Source: Lysobacteraceae bacterium | GTDB lineage: Bacteria > Pseudomonadota > Gammaproteobacteria > Xanthomonadales > Xanthomonadaceae | Reading direction: 5' to 3' | DNA length: 64,000 nucleotides | NCBI GenBank assembly: GCA_003241895.1 | Contig: QBLY01000002.1 | Span: 186,001-250,000 of the forward strand | Shown here: in pieces, positions 20,351-27,247 of the stretch | How the letters are laid out: the number at the start of each line of letters is the position of its first letter | Position numbering within the stretch: position 1 is the stretch's first letter | Notes under the pieces: generated by a model | Told to the model about the DNA's origin: nothing | Seen by the model: the letters and a program-made list of their open reading frames with translations, nothing else | The model's database searches: none | Program-made: the position numbers and the translations under genes

Positions 20351-20393
20351 TGCAAAATGCATGGTCCTGAGGGCCCGATCCATGCACAATGCA
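20351..20393 (+). promoter_or_regulatory. Paired TGCA-N3-TGCA palindromes, probable enhancer of the algB-like gene
   Basis: Two copies of an 11-bp palindrome, TGCAAAATGCA (20351-20361) and TGCACAATGCA (20383-20393), have centres 32 bp apart, about three helical turns. The second centre is 62.5 bp from the -24 GG of the sigma-54 promoter at 20449. The two copies also form an overall inverted repeat (TGCATGG / CCATGCA). The layout repeats at 26109-26151. A sigma-54 activator binding as a dimer of dimers is the natural reading; the AlgB-like product itself is the best candidate. Confidence 0.65.
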
Positions 20394-20448
20394 ATATCAA
20401 ACGCCCCGGCGATCGGGGTAGCCCCTGTCCTGAAGGCCTGTATGCAGG

Positions 20449-20464
20449 TGGCACGGGCCTTGCA
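20449..20464 (+). promoter_or_regulatory. Sigma-54 promoter of the algB-like gene
   Basis: TGGCACG-GGCC-TTGCA matches the sigma-54 (RpoN) consensus TGGCACG-N4-TTGCA at every fixed base, with GG at 20450-20451 and GC at 20462-20463. Transcription would start near 20475, 20 bp before the TTG start codon. Confidence 0.8.
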
Positions 20465-20494
20465 GCCCCCTCGGAACCCCCCTTGGAGTCTCCC

Positions 20495-21862
20495 TTGGCC
20501 GAATCCATCGCCAGCCCCATAGGTCGAATCCTGGCCATTGATGACGACGCCCGACTGCTCGAAAGCTTTGGCATGTGCCTGGAAGGCGCCGGCTATCGGG
20601 TGTCCACGGCGACAACGCTGCAGTCCGGCCTGAAGCTGGCCGCCGCCCAGCCGTTCCATGTCTGCCTGCTGGACCGCAACATCGGCCACGAGTCGGGCAT
20701 GGACGCGCTGCCACGGCTGCGCGAGCTGGCGCCACAGATGCGCATCATCATGGTCACGGGCCACTCGCGGGTGGACGACGCGGTGAAAGCGCTGTCTGAA
20801 GGCGCCAGCGATTACCTGGTAAAGCCCTGCTCGCCCGAACAGCTGCGCATCGCGGTGGCGCGCCAGATGGACACCATGCGCCTGCTCGATAAGATCGAAC
20901 GCCTGGAGCGCGAGGTCGAGCCGGGCGCGGCGGTGGACCTGCAGAGCAAAAGCCCGGCCATGGCCCAAGTGCTGGCCGTGGCCCGGCAAGTTGCCGCTAC
21001 CGACGCCAACCTGCTGCTGCTGGGCGAAAGCGGCACCGGCAAGGGTGTGCTGGCCAACGCCATCCACCAGTGGAGCCGGCGCGCGCAGGCGCCCTTTGCC
21101 ACCATCAACTGCCCGTCGCTGTCGGCCGAGCTGATGGAAAGCGAACTGTTCGGCCACGCCAAGGGCTCGTTCACCGGTGCCACCCAAAGCACGCAGGGCC
21201 GCGTCAGCAACGCCGACGGCGGCACGCTGTTCCTGGACGAGGTGGGCGATTTCCCGCTGGCCCTGCAGCCCAAGCTGCTGCGCTTCATCCAGGACAAGCA
21301 GTACGAGCGCATCGGCGACCCGGGTACGCGGCGCGCCGATGTGCGCATCGTCTCGGCCACCAACCGCGACCTGGAAACGATGGTTTCCGAGGGAAGTTTC
21401 CGGCTGGACCTGCTCTACCGGCTCAACGTGATCAGCCTGACGCTGCCGGCGCTGCGCGACCGGCCCGAGGACCTTGAAGACCTCGCGCTGGGCTTCATCG
21501 GCCGCTACGCGCGCAGCTACCACCTGCCGGCGGCGCGCCTGGCGCCCGAGGCACTGGCACGCCTGCGCGCTTACCCCTGGCCGGGCAACGTGCGCGAACT
21601 GCAGAACGTGATGGAGCGCGCGGTGATCCTTTGCACGGGCGAAGTGATCACGCCGGCGCAGTTGGCTCTCGGCACGCAAACCGCGGCTGGCGGCGACGCC
21701 GTCCCTGCCGCGGTGGCCGGTGCACCCATCACCATCAATCTACTGGAGCGCCGGCACATCGAAGCCGTGGTGGCCGCCAGCGAAACACTGGATGCCGCCG
21801 CCAAAACGCTCGGCATCGATGGATCCACCCTTTACCGGAAACGGAAGTCGTACGGCATTTAA
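20495..21862 (+). CDS. algB: AlgB-like NtrC-family response regulator (sigma-54 activator)
   Basis: A 455-residue regulator: receiver domain (residues 10-125, phospho-acceptor Asp60 in LLDRN), AAA+ domain (about 150-385; Walker A GESGTGKG near 177, GSFTGA at 224-229 where most relatives have GAFTGA, ESELFGH, GTLFLDE), and a Fis-type HTH ending [22 protein letters not shown]. Length and C-terminus match AlgB of Pseudomonas. TTG 20495 is chosen because of the SD TTGGAG 5 bp upstream and because it gives the AlgB length; the open frame begins earlier at 20357 within the enhancer. No KinB-like kinase is adjacent. GSFTGA keeps the sigma-54-contacting Phe-Thr pair. Confidence 0.85.
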
Positions 21863-21870
21863 AGGGACGA

Positions 21871-21892
21871 CCTCCCGCGCTACGCCGGGAGG
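21871..21892 (+). terminator. Hairpin after the algB-like gene
   Basis: CCTCCCG (21871-21877) pairs perfectly with CGGGAGG (21886-21892) across an 8-base loop, 8 bp past the stop codon. The following GATTTG gives only a weak T-run. Confidence 0.55.
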
Positions 21893-21970
21893 GATTTGCG
21901 ATCAGGAGTGAGGGACGTGCAGCATTTGAACCAGCGCAACGATCGATCCAGCGTCGAAGAGGGCGCTGAC

Positions 21971-22462
21971 GTGTCGGACACGAAGCCCAGGCTGCTTTCA
22001 GGGGTGTTGCTGGCGGTGTGGGTATTGGCGATCGTGGTCGCTGGCGCCGCGGCAGGGCTTCTGTTCCCGCCCGGTGAGTGGTACCAGCAGTTGGCCAAGC
22101 CGACCTGGAACCCGCCGCCGTGGCTGTTCGGCCCGGTGTGGACGACGCTCTACGTGCTGCTGGGTATCGGCGCATGGCTGGTGTGGCGCGAGCCGGGTGT
22201 GGCGGCCGAAGAACGTCGCGGCGCATGGATCGCTTTTGGCGTCCATGCGGTCCTCAATCTGTCCTGGACAGCGCTATTCTTCGGGCTCAAGCAGCCCGGC
22301 CTGGCCTTCCTTGAAATTAGCCTGATGTGGATAGTGCTGCTGTGGATGACGCTGCGGTTCGGCCGCGTGAGCGCCCTTGCGGGCTACCTGCAGATGCCGC
22401 TGGTGCTGTGGGTGAGTTTCGCTCTGGTGCTCAATGGCACCATCTGGCTCATGAACGCCTGA
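21971..22462 (+). CDS. tspO: TspO/MBR-family membrane protein
   Basis: A 163-residue protein with five predicted membrane helices. The TspO signature WYQQLAKPTWNPPPWLFGP followed by WTTLYVLLGIGAWL is clear, as is NLSWTALFFGL in helix 4. TspO binds tetrapyrroles and related ligands and is tied to oxidative and light stress. GTG 21971 gives the family length; the frame is open up to 21896, which would add a 25-residue polar extension lacking an SD. Confidence 0.9.
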   Translation: MSDTKPRLLSGVLLAVWVLAIVVAGAAAGLLFPPGEWYQQLAKPTWNPPPWLFGPVWTTLYVLLGIGAWLVWREPGVAAEERRGAWIAFGVHAVLNLSWTALFFGLKQPGLAFLEISLMWIVLLWMTLRFGRVSALAGYLQMPLVLWVSFALVLNGTIWLMNA

Positions 22463-22494
22463 CCGAAGACGGCTTTGAGAATCCAGGGGAATCC

Positions 22495-24642
22495 ATGTTG
22501 ACTCAACCCGCTACGTTCCGCTATCGGCTGTACACCGGTCTTCTTTTTTTCTCCGTGGTTGTGATCCTGGGCACATCCATCCTCTCGCTGCGCACCACGG
22601 GCCAGCTGCAGGACTCGGTCTCCGTCGCCAGCCACACCGAGCGGGTGATCGCCCAGGTAAACGAGTTCTGGGGACTGGTGGGAAACAGCGAATCCAACGG
22701 CCTGCGCTACCTATTTACCGGGGAACCACGGTACCTGGTGGCGTTCCGAACCGACGTTGCGGCGATTGACGACTCGCTGGACCAACTGACGGCACTGGCG
22801 GCCGACAATCCACAACAATCCGCGAAGGTGGCCGAGCTTCGCCGTCTGCATATGGAGCGGGTGAGTTTCGGCATGACCACCATGCAGCTGAAGTCCGACG
22901 AGATGGCCGGCAATCCGGCGGCGGGCCGTACGGTCCGGGAACGTCTGGCCAGCGGCGACGGTGGTCGCCTCCGGGAAGGGCTGCGTGTAGCGAGGGACAA
23001 CCTGCTGACAAAAGAACGCGACCTTCTGGTGGCTCGCAGTGAGCAGCGCAACAAGATGATCCGCCAGAACTGGGCCACCGTGCTGATCGCCAATGGCCTG
23101 GCGCTGGTTGCGGGCATGGTGGGCTATTCCGCCACGCGCCGCATGCAGCGCAAGGCCATGGAAGCCTATCGCTCCGACCTGCAGGCCGACCAGGCGCGCC
23201 GCTCCAGCCAGGACAAATCCGTTTTCCTGGCCAGCATGAGCCATGAGATACGCACGCCGATGAACGCCATCTTCGGCTTCACCAACCTGCTCGGCGAAAC
23301 TGCCACCGATCCCACCCAGGCCGAGTACGTCGCCTCGATCAAGAAAAGCGGCCAGGCCCTGCTGTCGCTGATCAACGACGTGCTGGACCTGTCGAAGATG
23401 GAGGCCGGCAAGTTCGAGCTGCGCGAAGAGCCCACCGACCTGCACGAGATCGTTGAACAGACCCTTGTGATGTTCCGGCAGACCGCCGACGCCAAGGGCA
23501 TCTACCTGCGCGTCGTATACGAAGGCCGCGCGGAGCAGCCGCTGCTGGTGGATCCCGTGCGCCTGCGCCAGGTGATGATCAACCTGGTGGGCAACGCCAT
23601 CAAGTACACCGAAAAGGGCGGCGTTATCGTGCAAATCTGCTGCGTGCCCAGCGCACTGGACGGCCACTGCGACCTCAAGATCGAAGTGGTGGACACCGGC
23701 ACGGGCATCGCGCCGCACCAGCTGGGCGTGATCTTCGATCCGTTCGAGCAGGGCGACAATCCCGACGGCAAGAGCCGCGAAGGCACCGGCCTGGGCCTGA
23801 GCATCTCGCGCCGGCTGGCCACCCTGATGGGTGGCGAGCTGGGCGCGGAAAGCAGGCTGGGCGAAGGCTCCCGGTTCACCATGCACATGCCGCAACGCGC
23901 CCTGCATCTTTCGCCTGTAAGCCAGAAGCCAAAGTCCGACGAGCGGGTTGATTTCGACCGGCTGCCGCCGCTGGACGTGCTGCTGGTGGACGACGTGGCC
24001 TGGAACCGCGACCTGGGCGTGGCCTACCTGCGCGGCAGCCACCACCAGGTCCGTGAGGCACGCGACGGCGTAGAGGCGCTCGAGCAGATCAAGGAAAAGC
24101 TGCCCGACGTGGTTCTGATGGACCTGCGCATGCCGCGCATGTCGGGCGAACAGGCGCTGATGCGGATCAAGTCCGACCCGGCCACGGCGCACCTGCCGGT
24201 AATCGCGGTGACGGCGTCGAGCATGCAGCACGAAGAGGGCACTATGCGGCGCCGCTTTGATGGCTTCGTTCGCAAACCCTATTCCAAAGCGGACCTTTTT
24301 GACATGTTGGCGCTGCATTTCCGGGCGCAGCCTGCCGCGGCGGCTGCCGTGCCAGAGGCTGAAACCGCGACGGGGGAGCTGCCCGGCCCCAGGGTTCGCG
24401 ACGAGGCGGCCTTGGCAAAGCTGCATCTGCTGCTGGACCAACGCATGGCCGGGATGAGGGCGTCTTTGCGCATGCGCGAGATCAACGATGCCGCCACCGA
24501 GCTGGCGGCGCTGGCGCAGGTTCTGCAGTGGCCGGCGCTTTCCGCGCACGCGCAGGCGCTGGCCAGCGCGGTGGATCGCTTTGACGTGCCCGAAGTGAAG
24601 CGGCTGCTCGACGCCACGCCGCAGCCAGGGGGCGCACCGTGA
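22495..24642 (+). CDS. CHASE3-type hybrid sensor histidine kinase with C-terminal receiver
   Basis: A 715-residue membrane kinase. A first helix (about 13-33) and a second (about 203-222) bracket a helical periplasmic CHASE3-like sensor (RTTGQLQDSV, then EPRYLVAF). The HisKA H-box SHEIRTPMNA has His250; the ATPase domain shows NLVGNAIKYT, DTGTGI and GTGLGLS. A receiver follows with Asp543 (LMDLRMP), then a helical C-terminal segment of about 90 residues that lies where an HPt would but shows no obvious phospho-histidine motif. SD AGGGGA. The stop overlaps the next gene (GTGA), so both act together. Confidence 0.88.
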   Translation: MLTQPATFRYRLYTGLLFFSVVVILGTSILSLRTTGQLQDSVSVASHTERVIAQVNEFWGLVGNSESNGLRYLFTGEPRYLVAFRTDVAAIDDSLDQLTALAADNPQQSAKVAELRRLHMERVSFGMTTMQLKSDEMAGNPAAGRTVRERLASGDGGRLREGLRVARDNLLTKERDLLVARSEQRNKMIRQNWATVLIANGLALVAGMVGYSATRRMQRKAMEAYRSDLQADQARRSSQDKSVFLASMSHEIRTPMNAIFGFTNLLGETATDPTQAEYVASIKKSGQALLSLINDVLDLSKMEAGKFELREEPTDLHEIVEQTLVMFRQTADAKGIYLRVVYEGRAEQPLLVDPVRLRQVMINLVGNAIKYTEKGGVIVQICCVPSALDGHCDLKIEVVDTGTGIAPHQLGVIFDPFEQGDNPDGKSREGTGLGLSISRRLATLMGGELGAESRLGEGSRFTMHMPQRALHLSPVSQKPKSDERVDFDRLPPLDVLLVDDVAWNRDLGVAYLRGSHHQVREARDGVEALEQIKEKLPDVVLMDLRMPRMSGEQALMRIKSDPATAHLPVIAVTASSMQHEEGTMRRRFDGFVRKPYSKADLFDMLALHFRAQPAAAAAVPEAETATGELPGPRVRDEAALAKLHLLLDQRMAGMRASLRMREINDAATELAALAQVLQWPALSAHAQALASAVDRFDVPEVKRLLDATPQPGGAP

Positions 24643-25721
24643 CTTTGCCCTGCACCGCCGTGGTGATGGTGGTGGACGACCAGGAAGCCAACGTGCGCAC
24701 GGTGGGCGGCCTTTTGGCGCGCGCCGGGTTCGACGTGATGCCCTGCTTCAGTGGCCAGGATGCCCTGGACCGCATGGCGGCCGGTCTTCCCGACCTGGTG
24801 CTTCTGGACATGCGCATGCCGGTGATGGACGGATTCCAGGTGCTGGAGCGGCTGCAGGCCGACGAGGCGACACGTTCGCTGCCGGTGATATTCCTCACCG
24901 CCGACCACGAGCGCGAATCGCTGGTGCGGGCGTTTTCCAGTGGCGCGGTGGACTATGTCACCAAGCCCTTCGTGCCCGAGGAGCTGCTGGCGCGCGTTCG
25001 CACGCACTGCGAGCTGAAAGTTGCGCGGGACCGGCAGCAGCAGCTCGCGTGCGAACGCCAGGAGAGCCTGGAGCTGATCGCGCACGACCTGCGAAACCAC
25101 TTCACCAACGTCATGTTCGCCAGTGAACTGCTGGCGGCGGGTGACCTGGCCGACAGCAAGCGCGAGCGCCTCGCGGCGTCCATCCGCAGTTCGGCCGATG
25201 CCGGGCTGCTGTTCCTGCAGGCGGTGCTGGACCAGGCCGCAGGTGAGGTGCAGGGTTTGGCGCTGGAGCCGCTGCCGGCCGCGCAGGTATTCCAGGACGC
25301 GGTGGACGTGATGGCGGCCCAGGCGGAGGCCAAGGGCATGCGCTTCGAGCTGGATCTTGATCGCCGCCTGCTGGTCCGCGGCCAGCGCGACGCCGTGGGT
25401 CATGTACTGCAGAACCTGATTTCCAACGCGATCAAGTACGCACCCCGCGGCAGCGTGGTGACGCTGTCGGCACAGGCGCACGAGGGCAACGCGCGCCTGC
25501 GAGTGCTGGACGTGGGGCCGGGCGTGTCGGACCTGGAGCAGGCGTCGCTGTTCCAGCGCTTCGTGACGCTTTCCAGTCAGCCTACCGGCGGCGAAACCGC
25601 CACCGGCCTCGGGCTGGCCCTGGCCAAACAGAAGTCGCGGGCCCTCGGCGGAGACCTCTGGTACGAGCACCGCCCAGGCGGCGGCGCCTGCTTCACGCTG
25701 GAACTGCCGCGCGTTCCATGA
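24639..25721 (+). CDS. Receiver-histidine kinase hybrid (REC-HisKA-HATPase)
   Basis: A 360-residue soluble protein. The N-terminal receiver has Asp57 (LLDMRMP) and the switch lysine in VDYVTKPF. It is followed by an H-box IAHDLRNHFTN (His149), then N-box NLISNAIKYAPRG and a degenerate G1 box (VLDVGPGVSD) with GETATGLGLAL as G2. It is coupled to the upstream kinase by a 4-bp overlap, suggesting phosphotransfer from that kinase to this receiver, which would control a second kinase activity. The order REC before kinase is a known but less common arrangement. Confidence 0.88.
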   Translation: MTLPCTAVVMVVDDQEANVRTVGGLLARAGFDVMPCFSGQDALDRMAAGLPDLVLLDMRMPVMDGFQVLERLQADEATRSLPVIFLTADHERESLVRAFSSGAVDYVTKPFVPEELLARVRTHCELKVARDRQQQLACERQESLELIAHDLRNHFTNVMFASELLAAGDLADSKRERLAASIRSSADAGLLFLQAVLDQAAGEVQGLALEPLPAAQVFQDAVDVMAAQAEAKGMRFELDLDRRLLVRGQRDAVGHVLQNLISNAIKYAPRGSVVTLSAQAHEGNARLRVLDVGPGVSDLEQASLFQRFVTLSSQPTGGETATGLGLALAKQKSRALGGDLWYEHRPGGGACFTLELPRVP

Positions 25722-25743
25722 CCCCGCCCGCCGACTTCCCATG

Positions 25744-25775
25744 AAGAAGGGCGCGCCTCGCGGCGCGCCCTTCTT
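25744..25775 (+). terminator. Strong intrinsic terminator
   Basis: A 14-bp perfect stem, AAGAAGGGCGCGCC (25744-25757) against GGCGCGCCCTTCTT (25762-25775) with a TCGC tetraloop. It ends the two-kinase operon and also stands beyond the stop of the convergent entericidin-like gene. Confidence 0.85.
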
Positions 25776-25799
25776 GCATCACGGCCCGGGAAGCGCCGT

Positions 25800-25952
25800 T
25801 CAGTTCTTGGCGTCTTCCGCCGTTTCTTCGATCACTTCACCGGCCTTCTTGACGTCCTGGCCAGCGCCGGAAATCGTGTTGCAGGCGGTCAGCGAACCAA
25901 GCGAGAAGCCCAGCAGGGCAAGGGCAGCGAAGGTGCGCAGGGTGGTCTTCAT
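25800..25952 (-). CDS. Entericidin-like small lipoprotein
   Basis: A 50-residue lipoprotein precursor: MKTTLRTFAALALLGFSLGS, lipobox LTAC, then NTISGAGQDVKKAGEVIEE, the pattern of entericidin A/B-type proteins. The mature peptide of about 27 residues would be lipid-anchored in the envelope; entericidins are stationary-phase/stress peptides. AAGGA SD before ATG 25952. It is divergent from the lipoprotein gene at 26309 and shares its palindrome pair; a sigma-54-like promoter faces it at 26039-26054. Confidence 0.88.
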   Translation of the reverse strand: MKTTLRTFAALALLGFSLGSLTACNTISGAGQDVKKAGEVIEETAEDAKN

Positions 25953-26038
25953 GGGGATTCCTTCATTTTTGGTAATGCATGGAGTGAGTCTTTGGATCCG
26001 GGGGAGGGGTCGGCAAGCGCCGATCCTGTCCAAGCATC

Positions 26039-26054
26039 TCCAAGAAGCGTGCCA
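26039..26054 (-). promoter_or_regulatory. Sigma-54-like promoter facing the entericidin gene
   Basis: On the minus strand the bases read TGGCACG-CTTC-TTGGA. The -24 part is perfect; the -12 part has G where the consensus has C (TTGCA), which would weaken it. The -24 GG (26053-26052) is 61.5 bp from the centre of the nearer palindrome (26114), the mirror image of the plus-strand arrangement. Confidence 0.5.
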
Positions 26055-26108
26055 ACGCTCCCCCGCGCGCAGCAGGCGCATTGCACGGGTGATTTGAAAC
26101 GCGGGGTA

Positions 26109-26151
26109 TGCGAAACGCATGGCGACCTGCCCTGTGACCGTGCAGCGTGCA
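26109..26151. promoter_or_regulatory. Paired TGCR-N3-YGCA palindromes between divergent lipoprotein genes
   Basis: TGCGAAACGCA (26109-26119) and TGCAGCGTGCA (26141-26151) have centres exactly 32 bp apart, the same as the pair before the algB-like gene. The outer distances to the two flanking sigma-54 -24 elements are both 61.5 bp, so the pair sits in the exact middle of a mirror-symmetric divergent promoter region. Probable binding site for a sigma-54 activator. Confidence 0.65.
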
Positions 26152-26205
26152 TGTTCGCCGCGCTTGAACCAGGCCAAACGCCGCACTGCATGGGCCTGCG
26201 GCGGT

Positions 26206-26221
26206 TGGCACGGGACTTGCT
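26206..26221 (+). promoter_or_regulatory. Sigma-54 promoter of the lipoprotein - DUF2383 genes
   Basis: TGGCACG-GGAC-TTGCT matches the sigma-54 consensus at all fixed positions (GG 26207-26208, GC 26219-26220, N10 between). The start of transcription would be near 26232, leaving a 76-base leader before ATG 26309. Confidence 0.8.
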
Positions 26222-26308: not shown

Positions 26309-26710
26309 ATGAATAAGTTCACCCTGTCCGCCCTGTCGTTCGCCGTCGTCCTCGCCATGTCCGGCTGCAAGCCCGAGACCCCGGCGGAAACGCAGGAAGA
26401 CGTCGCCGAAGCGCGCGTCGACGCCAATGAAGAAATCCGTGATGCGCAGCGCGACGCCAACGAAACGGCGATGGACACCAACACCGACGTTGCCGATTCC
26501 ATGGAAGACAACGCCGAGGCCCGCTACGACGTGGCGATGGCCAAGGCCGACGGCCAGCTGTCGATCGCCAAGGAGCGCTGCGATGGCGTCGTGGACGTCG
26601 AGCGTGACGCCTGCAATGCAGCCGCCGAAGCCGATTACGAAGCCGCCAAGGCTACGGCCACGACCGATATGGAAGCTGCCGAAGCAAACGCCGAGACGAT
26701 GACTCGCTGA
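26309..26710 (+). CDS. Acidic, heptad-rich envelope lipoprotein
   Basis: A 133-residue lipoprotein: signal peptide SALSFAVVLAMSGC with a lipobox cysteine at about residue 18, then an acidic Ala/Glu/Asp-rich helix with repeated DA-x-DA-N-E patterns (EARVDANEEIRDAQRDANET). Two further cysteines (ERCDGVV, RDACNAA), 13 residues apart, might form a disulphide. The composition suggests a long helical, perhaps coiled-coil rod in the periplasm. Function unknown. It is first behind the sigma-54 promoter at 26206 and is followed after 90 bp by the DUF2383 gene. Confidence 0.8.
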   Translation: MNKFTLSALSFAVVLAMSGCKPETPAETQEDVAEARVDANEEIRDAQRDANETAMDTNTDVADSMEDNAEARYDVAMAKADGQLSIAKERCDGVVDVERDACNAAAEADYEAAKATATTDMEAAEANAETMTR

Positions 26711-26800: not shown

Positions 26801-27247
26801 ATGACCCAGAACAAAACCGCCGCCAGCATCAACGACCTCGTGGAAGCCCTCAACGACGGCGTTGCCTTCTACGACCACGCCGCTGGCGAGGCCAAGGAAG
26901 CGGGCCACAAGCAGCTGTTCCAGGACATGAGCCGCATCAAGCGTTCCATCGCCACGGAGCTCAAGTCCGAGGTGCTGCGCCAGGGCGGCGAGCCGGCCAA
27001 CGACAGCAGCTGGCTGGGTGACTTCCGCCAGGGCTATGCCGATCTCAAGGCGAAGATGGTGAAGGACTCGGACGGCGCCTACATCGTGTCCTTGGAAGCC
27101 CAGGAAGACCGCGTGCTGCACGCTTTCCGTGATGCCGTGGACGTTGACCAGCCGGCGCGGGTGCGCGAAATCGCCGCCAAGTACCTGCCCGAAGTGCAGG
27201 GCATGCACGACCGCATGCGTGCGCTGAAGCTGGCCAAGGAGGCCTGA
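26801..27247 (+). CDS. PA2169/DUF2383-family four-helix protein
   Basis: A 148-residue all-helical protein of the DUF2383 (ferritin-like, PA2169) family: INDLVEALNDGVAFYDHAA, then FQDMSRIKRSIATELKSEV, and EAQEDRVLHAFRDAV. Carboxylate and histidine residues occur where ferritin-like proteins bind iron, but metal binding is not proven. GGAGA SD lies before the ATG. It probably shares the transcript of the lipoprotein upstream and ends at the terminator at 27325. Relatives appear in stress and stationary-phase sets. Confidence 0.85.
   Translation: MTQNKTAASINDLVEALNDGVAFYDHAAGEAKEAGHKQLFQDMSRIKRSIATELKSEVLRQGGEPANDSSWLGDFRQGYADLKAKMVKDSDGAYIVSLEAQEDRVLHAFRDAVDVDQPARVREIAAKYLPEVQGMHDRMRALKLAKEA

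Follow-up and report, generated by a model that had tools for sequence, protein, structure and literature searches.

What reads the paired palindromes that stand, at one and the same spacing, in front of three sigma-54 promoters in a Lysobacteraceae genome (contig QBLY01000002.1), and is it the product of the regulatory gene that one of these promoters precedes? In the 64,000-nucleotide stretch that we analysed (hereafter the window), a first-pass annotation had placed these elements upstream of an algB-like gene and between two divergent lipoprotein genes, and had proposed that they define a regulon probably controlled by the AlgB-like protein itself. We found that this architecture is conserved, that it co-occurs with AlgB, and that the regulator carries a DNA-reading helix specific to the AlgB clade. 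Genes that a relative of AlgB would switch on seem to be marked by paired sites with a set spacing, from an Arenimonas-like bacterium to Pseudomonas, and most of these genes encode small envelope or stress proteins. Judging from sequence, we consider it very probable that they delimit a direct sigma-54 regulon of an AlgB orthologue, read from the paired palindromes. The feature is true and conserved, the earlier reading is right, and its extent is larger than was stated.

Upstream of the regulator operon lie a distal AlgB-type palindrome, TGCAAAATGCA (20351-20361), and a proximal one, TGCACAATGCA (20383-20393), followed by the sigma-54 promoter TGGCACGGGCCTTGCA (20449-20464, plus strand). The second pair, TGCGAAACGCA (26109-26119) and TGCAGCGTGCA (26141-26151), is flanked by the promoters of an entericidin gene, TGGCACGCTTCTTGGA (26039-26054, minus strand, 11/12), and of a lipoprotein gene, TGGCACGGGACTTGCT (26206-26221, plus strand). 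As the first-pass annotation had claimed, the 11-bp palindromes form pairs with centres 32 bp apart at two places, and all four are perfect matches to TGCR-N3-YGCA. Its distance of 61.5-62.5 bp between the nearer palindrome and the promoter GG was reproduced on re-measurement, with 62.5 bp at 20449, 61.5 bp at 26206 and 61.5 bp on the minus strand; the palindrome at 26109 is 93.5 bp from the plus-strand GG and that at 26141 is 93.5 bp from the minus-strand GG. Two of the three promoters, 20449 and 26206, match TGGCACG-N4-TTGCW in full (12/12), also as claimed; they are the sole full matches within the window, and GG-N10-GC (-24/-12) is present at both. Taken singly, the palindromes show no enrichment across the window (9 seen, 15.6 expected), so that the signal lies in their pairing. 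The symmetry of the 26109-26151 pair toward two opposite promoters is kept in two related loci, L045 and L046. A weak third palindrome, GGCGCATTGCA (26075-26085), stands close to the entericidin -24 box, 27.5 bp from the minus-strand GG; it is imperfect in the window and perfect (TGCGCAATGCA) in L045, and could be a repressing or an extra site.

The perfect 32-bp pair occurs at two places in the 3.1-Mb genome, both in the window, compared with none for the reversed pattern. Across the family, the reversed pair pattern was found once in each of 8 of 198 genomes, a background of about 0.04 places per genome. For the comparison with related genomes, 32 loci were picked by the regulator and not by the pattern, and were oriented on the regulator; they hold 66 sigma-54-like sites, and spacings from 20 to 45 were examined. 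The architecture recurs there: 23 of these orthologous loci have a pair scoring 15/16 or better at spacing 31-33, and of the 26 perfect pairs upstream of sigma-54 sites 21 have a spacing of 31 (9) or 32 (12), the rest being at 22 (2), 21, 34 and 38 (1 each). A wider locus set, biased in that many loci were fetched by a pattern fixing the spacing at 31-32 and the distance at about 45-80 bp, gave 60 non-redundant sigma-54 sites with at least two perfect palindromes 35-130 bp upstream. There, 52 of 94 spacings were 31 or 32 (a reversed anchor gave 0/26; sigma-54 anchors, n=234), and the nearer palindrome lay at 51 (4 sites), 61-64 (25), 66 (1), 72-74 (29) or 108 (1) bp. The distances thus cluster near 51.5, 62 and 73.5 bp. 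We speak of steps of roughly one helical turn and not of a clean 10.5-bp period, which was rejected, since a period of about 11.4 bp fits best and the clusters number only three. The earlier "exactly 32 and 62" therefore holds for this lineage but not elsewhere, where spacings are mostly 31-32, with some of 21-22 and 30, and all three distances are in use. The regulator promoter in 5 of 7 g14 loci combines spacing 31 with 51.5-52.5 bp, Pseudomonas uses mostly 31-32 with about 73.5 bp, and some Arenimonas promoters use 21-22 with 62 bp.

The regulator (20495-21862, plus strand) consists of a receiver domain, a sigma-54 AAA+ domain (Sigma54_activat) and a Fis-type helix-turn-helix (HTH_8), all Pfam matches above cut-off and called on 20498-21862. 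It is 57% identical to the P. peli protein. In a tree of 75 rows, for which 19 of 80 genome loci were taken, the window protein, 27 Lysobacteraceae rows and 13 rows from Pseudomonas and kin (including one gammaproteobacterial metagenome-assembled genome [MAG] and one from genome G467) formed one clade of 41 rows (support 99/99) that excludes the 34 other activators. In Pseudomonas peli, P. tumuqii and the gammaproteobacterial MAG the regulator is followed by a kinase, and the KinB_sensor Pfam match was present in this adjacent kinase at all three loci scanned (L048, L051 and the MAG locus L047). With this clade and its KinB-adjacent Pseudomonas members, the label "algB-like" is correct as strict orthology. 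The protein falls under every equivalog cut-off among the 25 of 97 NCBIfam families listed; identity with NtrC (NR-I) was rejected at 346.2 bits against a cut-off of 558.6, and identity with ZraR and AtoC at 304.6 and 374.1 bits against 760 and 714. The 13-residue reading helix is present in 39 of 40 clade rows (L040, a match of fewer than 300 residues, was dropped from the motif counts) and in 0 of 34 other activators, and the single clade row without it, L027, is broken at that end. The window protein also carries the sigma-54 contact loop, as GSFTGA.

The link to algB drawn in the first-pass annotation was supported, as presence of the pattern tracks presence of the orthologue. Our strict whole-genome pattern was TGCA-N3-YGCA, N20-21, TGCR-N3-YGCA, N38-72, TGGCAY; because it requires TGCA in the distal palindrome and allows no mismatch in the halves, its counts are lower bounds, and it misses the window's own lipoprotein promoter (distal TGCG). 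Among 297 Lysobacteraceae genomes it was found in 10 of 21 with the orthologue (E <= 1e-130) and in 0 of 276 without (p = 2.8e-13). Among 218 Pseudomonadaceae genomes of unstated completeness, it was found in 161 of 174 with AlgB (E <= 1e-150) and in 2 of 44 without (p = 6.9e-31), leaving 13 with AlgB only and 42 with neither. A scan of 369 genomes of the class returned four: this genome, G467, G442 and G649, of which G467 has a 59% AlgB orthologue unlinked to its pattern site. Reversed-pattern controls were positive in 0/297, 0/369 and 0/218 genomes, compared with 10, 4 and 163 for the pattern. Of the Pseudomonadaceae matches, 150 were listed; 60 of these are no more than 7 kb from algB, 65 are not linked to it and 25 are without placement, and the total length is 113-115 bp in 133 of the 150, where 86-121 was allowed.

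Several observations weigh against a regulon read by AlgB. The 2x2 tests ignore kinship. The pattern occurs without an AlgB match in two Pseudomonadaceae genomes (G869 and G884) and without an orthologue in G442 and G649, and 13 Pseudomonadaceae genomes have AlgB without the strict pattern. The minus-strand promoter (26054-26039) is without the -12 GC. Nine of the 32 regulator-chosen loci have no pair of 15/16 or better at 31-33 (L126, L129, L131, L132, L133, L135, L151, L152 and L158); among them, a perfect pair is present at spacing 22 in L131 and L132, and one of 15/16 at spacing 30 in L129 and L152. A glycine-zipper gene, described below, co-occurs with AlgB and has sigma-54 sites, with palindromes weak or absent.

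One alternative, which we regard as unlikely, is that AlgB does use these sites, but in part to repress or independently of sigma-54. AlgB can act at algD without RpoN. One review states that unphosphorylated AlgB binds and activates algD (PMC10418997), and another places algB under AlgU (PMC13001231). The third palindrome adjoins the entericidin -24 box, and in the orthologues of G201 and G209 (L025 and L026) the contact loop is changed or partly deleted while the reading helix is kept. Most pairs, however, have -24/-12 elements at stepped distances, 38 of 40 clade rows retain GAFTGA or GSFTGA, and the two rows without the loop lack pairs and promoters as well: in their 18-20-kb regions (L133 and L134) no pair is perfect and no sigma-54-like site scores above 10/12, and L134 has one imperfect pair directly behind the kinase gene. 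G201 and G209 are perhaps a sigma-54-independent branch. In G198 (L135) there is no pair despite an intact loop, and the protein is broken at its C-terminal end in the assembly.

A different regulator, either another enhancer-binding protein or a repressor, might instead travel with AlgB and bind the palindromes while something else activates the promoters. The pattern genomes without AlgB, G442 and G649 as well as 2 of 44 Pseudomonadaceae, speak for it; yet the orthologue is patchy in Lysobacteraceae (21/297) and all 10 pattern genomes fall among the 21, in both families the pair often adjoins algB while the remaining neighbours vary, and the reading helix is specific to the AlgB clade. We therefore judged this explanation very unlikely. 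The sites in G442 and G649 (L180 and L181) consist of three close TGCA-N3-YGCA palindromes with a sigma-54-like site, and perhaps belong to another system in which a different regulator has a similar site. Chance in GC-rich DNA with a flexible motif would fit the unenriched single palindromes and the 32-bp pairs that stand alone, one per genome, in a few genomes of the family that have no orthologue, but the empty reversed controls in all three genome sets make it barely credible.

Returning to direct activation by AlgB, we can outline how such promoters would work. AlgB dimers would bind TGCR-N3-YGCA pairs with centres about three helical turns apart (31-32 bp), or at some promoters about two turns (21-22 bp), and a spacing of whole turns would put both dimers on one face of the DNA. 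The AAA+ ring built by these dimers would reach the closed complex through a short loop, making contact with sigma-54 polymerase on a -24/-12 promoter that lies 50-75 bp from the pair. Given the contact loop, the rpoN gene found in this genome and the stepped distances, two AlgB dimers on one DNA face are the natural reading. The 20351/20383 pair would drive the algB operon in positive feedback. The 26109/26141 pair, lying 61.5 bp from two opposite promoters, should serve both: the entericidin gene leftwards, and the lipoprotein and DUF2383 genes rightwards. At g41, g15 and Pseudomonas loci the pair is beside the regulator, with the sigma-54 promoter pointing away from it, and at the g12 locus L159 it lies downstream and precedes the lipoprotein gene. 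On this basis, the sigma-54 promoter of the regulator itself seems to be a derived feature of the Arenimonas and g14 lineages.

The gene order in the window is an operon-like run on the plus strand of the activator, a TspO/MBR family protein (21917-22462), a CHASE3 hybrid histidine kinase with HisKA, HATPase and receiver domains (22495-24642) and a soluble receiver-kinase (REC-HATPase, with a HisKA-like H box by eye; 24639-25721), followed by the targets. These are the entericidin-family lipoprotein (25800-25952, minus strand) and, on the plus strand, a lipoprotein with a lipobox by eye (26309-26710), which has homologues in many related loci and no Pfam or NCBIfam match, and a DUF2383/PA2169-family four-helix-bundle protein (26801-27247), presumably on the same transcript. 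The start codon of the regulator is uncertain (TTG at 20495 or 20483). The listed ATG start of its frame (20357) falls within the enhancer, upstream of the promoter, and a transcript from the sigma-54 promoter would have to be translated from a TTG codon behind a very short leader. No KinB gene adjoins the regulator here, and the L159 kinase has HAMP, PAS and HisKA domains and no KinB sensor domain; the frames scanned at L160 and L161, probably not the coding ones, had no match. The receiver-kinase has a match close to the regulator at 23 of 26 loci outside Pseudomonas, with partial matches in L126, L131, L132 and L135; it is a candidate for the cognate kinase that would phosphorylate the AlgB orthologue. 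L126 (G128:C5:123808-124659) holds a second, C-terminally incomplete AlgB-orthologue match (62%, residues 3-286) adjoining a partial receiver-kinase match, a decayed copy by its looks. In L157 (G126:C111), TspO and the hybrid kinase stand away from the regulator behind a 12/12 sigma-54 site, and a perfect pair lies 162 bp from that site and 63.5 bp from a promoter facing the other way. The arrangement gives the impression that parts of the operon moved together with an enhancer.

The earlier statement that the architecture "defines a regulon" stands in that it recurs in relatives, but the clear set in this genome is small: one operon, one divergent pair and one weaker candidate. TGGCAYRN4TTG has 17 sites here compared with 9 for the reversed pattern, and among the sigma-54-like sites of the genome the perfect pair stands at the three window promoters only; the match at L178 was set aside, as it is inside a gene reading by eye as GGDEF. 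The weaker candidate (G000:C4:65185), with two 7/8 sites at 95.5 and 73.5 bp, precedes a glycine-zipper gene (G000:C4:64622-65131). A homologue of this gene is present in 8 of 27 genomes of the genus, all among the 13 with the AlgB orthologue (p = 0.0006), and sigma-54-like sites of 11-12/12 lie upstream of 6 of 11 copies (L275-L285), although for three of the six (L281, L282 and L285) the distance was taken from a partial match and the site may be intragenic. The gene is a candidate for a further member of the regulon; it is divergent from and upstream of the AlgB orthologue in G201 (218 bp) and G209 (about 1.2 kb).

Lysobacteraceae targets comprise the regulator operon, the lipoprotein, entericidin, DUF1328 and DUF2383. 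A Dps-like ferritin sits between promoter and regulator in L129 and L130, and an unlinked site in G011 precedes DUF2383, a target family also in the window. In 30 Pseudomonadaceae loci, we found 7 BON-DUF2383 gene pairs divergent from algB, 17 proteins of 75-103 aa ending in WVF or a near variant, 3 short BON, 2 DUF3509 and 1 unclear. Forty further matches were fetched, 34 of the 65 unlinked and 6 without algB placement, and their first genes were 12 short BON, 12 long BON, 6 WVF/WTF-ended, 8 of the DUF3509 group and 2 other (for the 34 unlinked: 12, 8, 5, 7 and 2). Four recurring groups thus cover the first gene at 32 of the 34 unlinked matches. BON labels are mostly by eye (L048, L207, L234, L253 and L266 were scanned), and 6 of 8 in the DUF3509 group were scanned, L245 falling below the cut-off. 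Overall, 23 of 71 first genes end in a WVF-type tetrapeptide. At the G467 site, too, the first gene has such an ending, RWVF; DUF1328 for the second small gene there was dropped, having no Pfam match. The WVF-ended group, exported-looking proteins of 65-103 aa ending in [RHS]WVF or a close variant behind promoters with an AlgB-type pair, comprises 17 loci among L204-L233, together with L242, L244, L247, L248, L259, L263 and L179 (G467); the two scanned, L205 and L263, had no Pfam match.

The products suggest a role in the envelope or in general stress. Taking all of this together, we lean, by a little, towards the reading that the ancestral and still main direct job of AlgB would be to run, through sigma-54, a regulon of small proteins for envelope and stress rather than alginate, with the two-palindrome code kept in helical step from Lysobacteraceae to Pseudomonadaceae while sensor kinases were exchanged, and with the G201/G209 branch having lost loop, pairs and promoters together. 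If true, this regulon would be a sigma-54 counterpart to part of the general stress response (BON/OsmY-like, DUF2383, DUF1328, entericidin, DUF3509, Dps-like and WVF-ended peptides). The motif, the spacing rule and the targets in many genomes make the direct regulon of AlgB testable, and the shared promoter code suggests what DUF2383, DUF1328, DUF3509 and the WVF-ended peptides have in common.

In the literature, where it is a well studied Pseudomonas regulator, AlgB has GAFTGA and the phosphorylation site D59 (PMC6932827), binds three sites at algD (PMC10418997), and is linked to alginate, biofilm and CRISPR-Cas expression (PMC10418997, PMC8523701, PMC6932827); KinB and RpoN act on algW (PMC13001231). 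An AlgB motif was recovered by HT-SELEX, its letters being outside the main text (PMC8041468), and RNA-seq and ChIP-seq including AlgB/KinB exist for P. syringae, as cited in PMC11957545; PMC10482368 was consulted as well. The passages searched, with subscription papers mostly outside them, did not give the AlgB binding sequence, which may be printed elsewhere, and held nothing joining AlgB with PA5482 or with the BON domain, or joining sigma-54, entericidin and an enhancer-binding protein; for DUF1328 with RpoN they offered only fluoride in E. coli. The kind of system is known, and the AlgB code and target set appear new within the searchable literature.

Among known systems, ZraR and AtoC have the same kind of domains, in the same order, as the window regulator. 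At glnAp2, NtrC dimers have two sites separated by about three turns, with the -24/-12 promoter downstream of them; here, in contrast, the 11-bp palindrome is a different one (TGC-N5-GCA) and the protein is below the NCBIfam cut-off for NtrC. A further comparison is with KinB-AlgB of Pseudomonas, whose response regulator is an RpoN enhancer-binding protein. There, a KinB gene adjoins algB, whereas here TspO, a CHASE3 hybrid kinase and a receiver-kinase take its place, and the regulator here has its own sigma-54 promoter, unlike P. aeruginosa algB, which a review places under AlgU (PMC13001231); what the two systems share is an orthologous regulator, the same reading helix, and the paired palindromes, which Pseudomonas genomes likewise carry, both adjoining algB and at other places.

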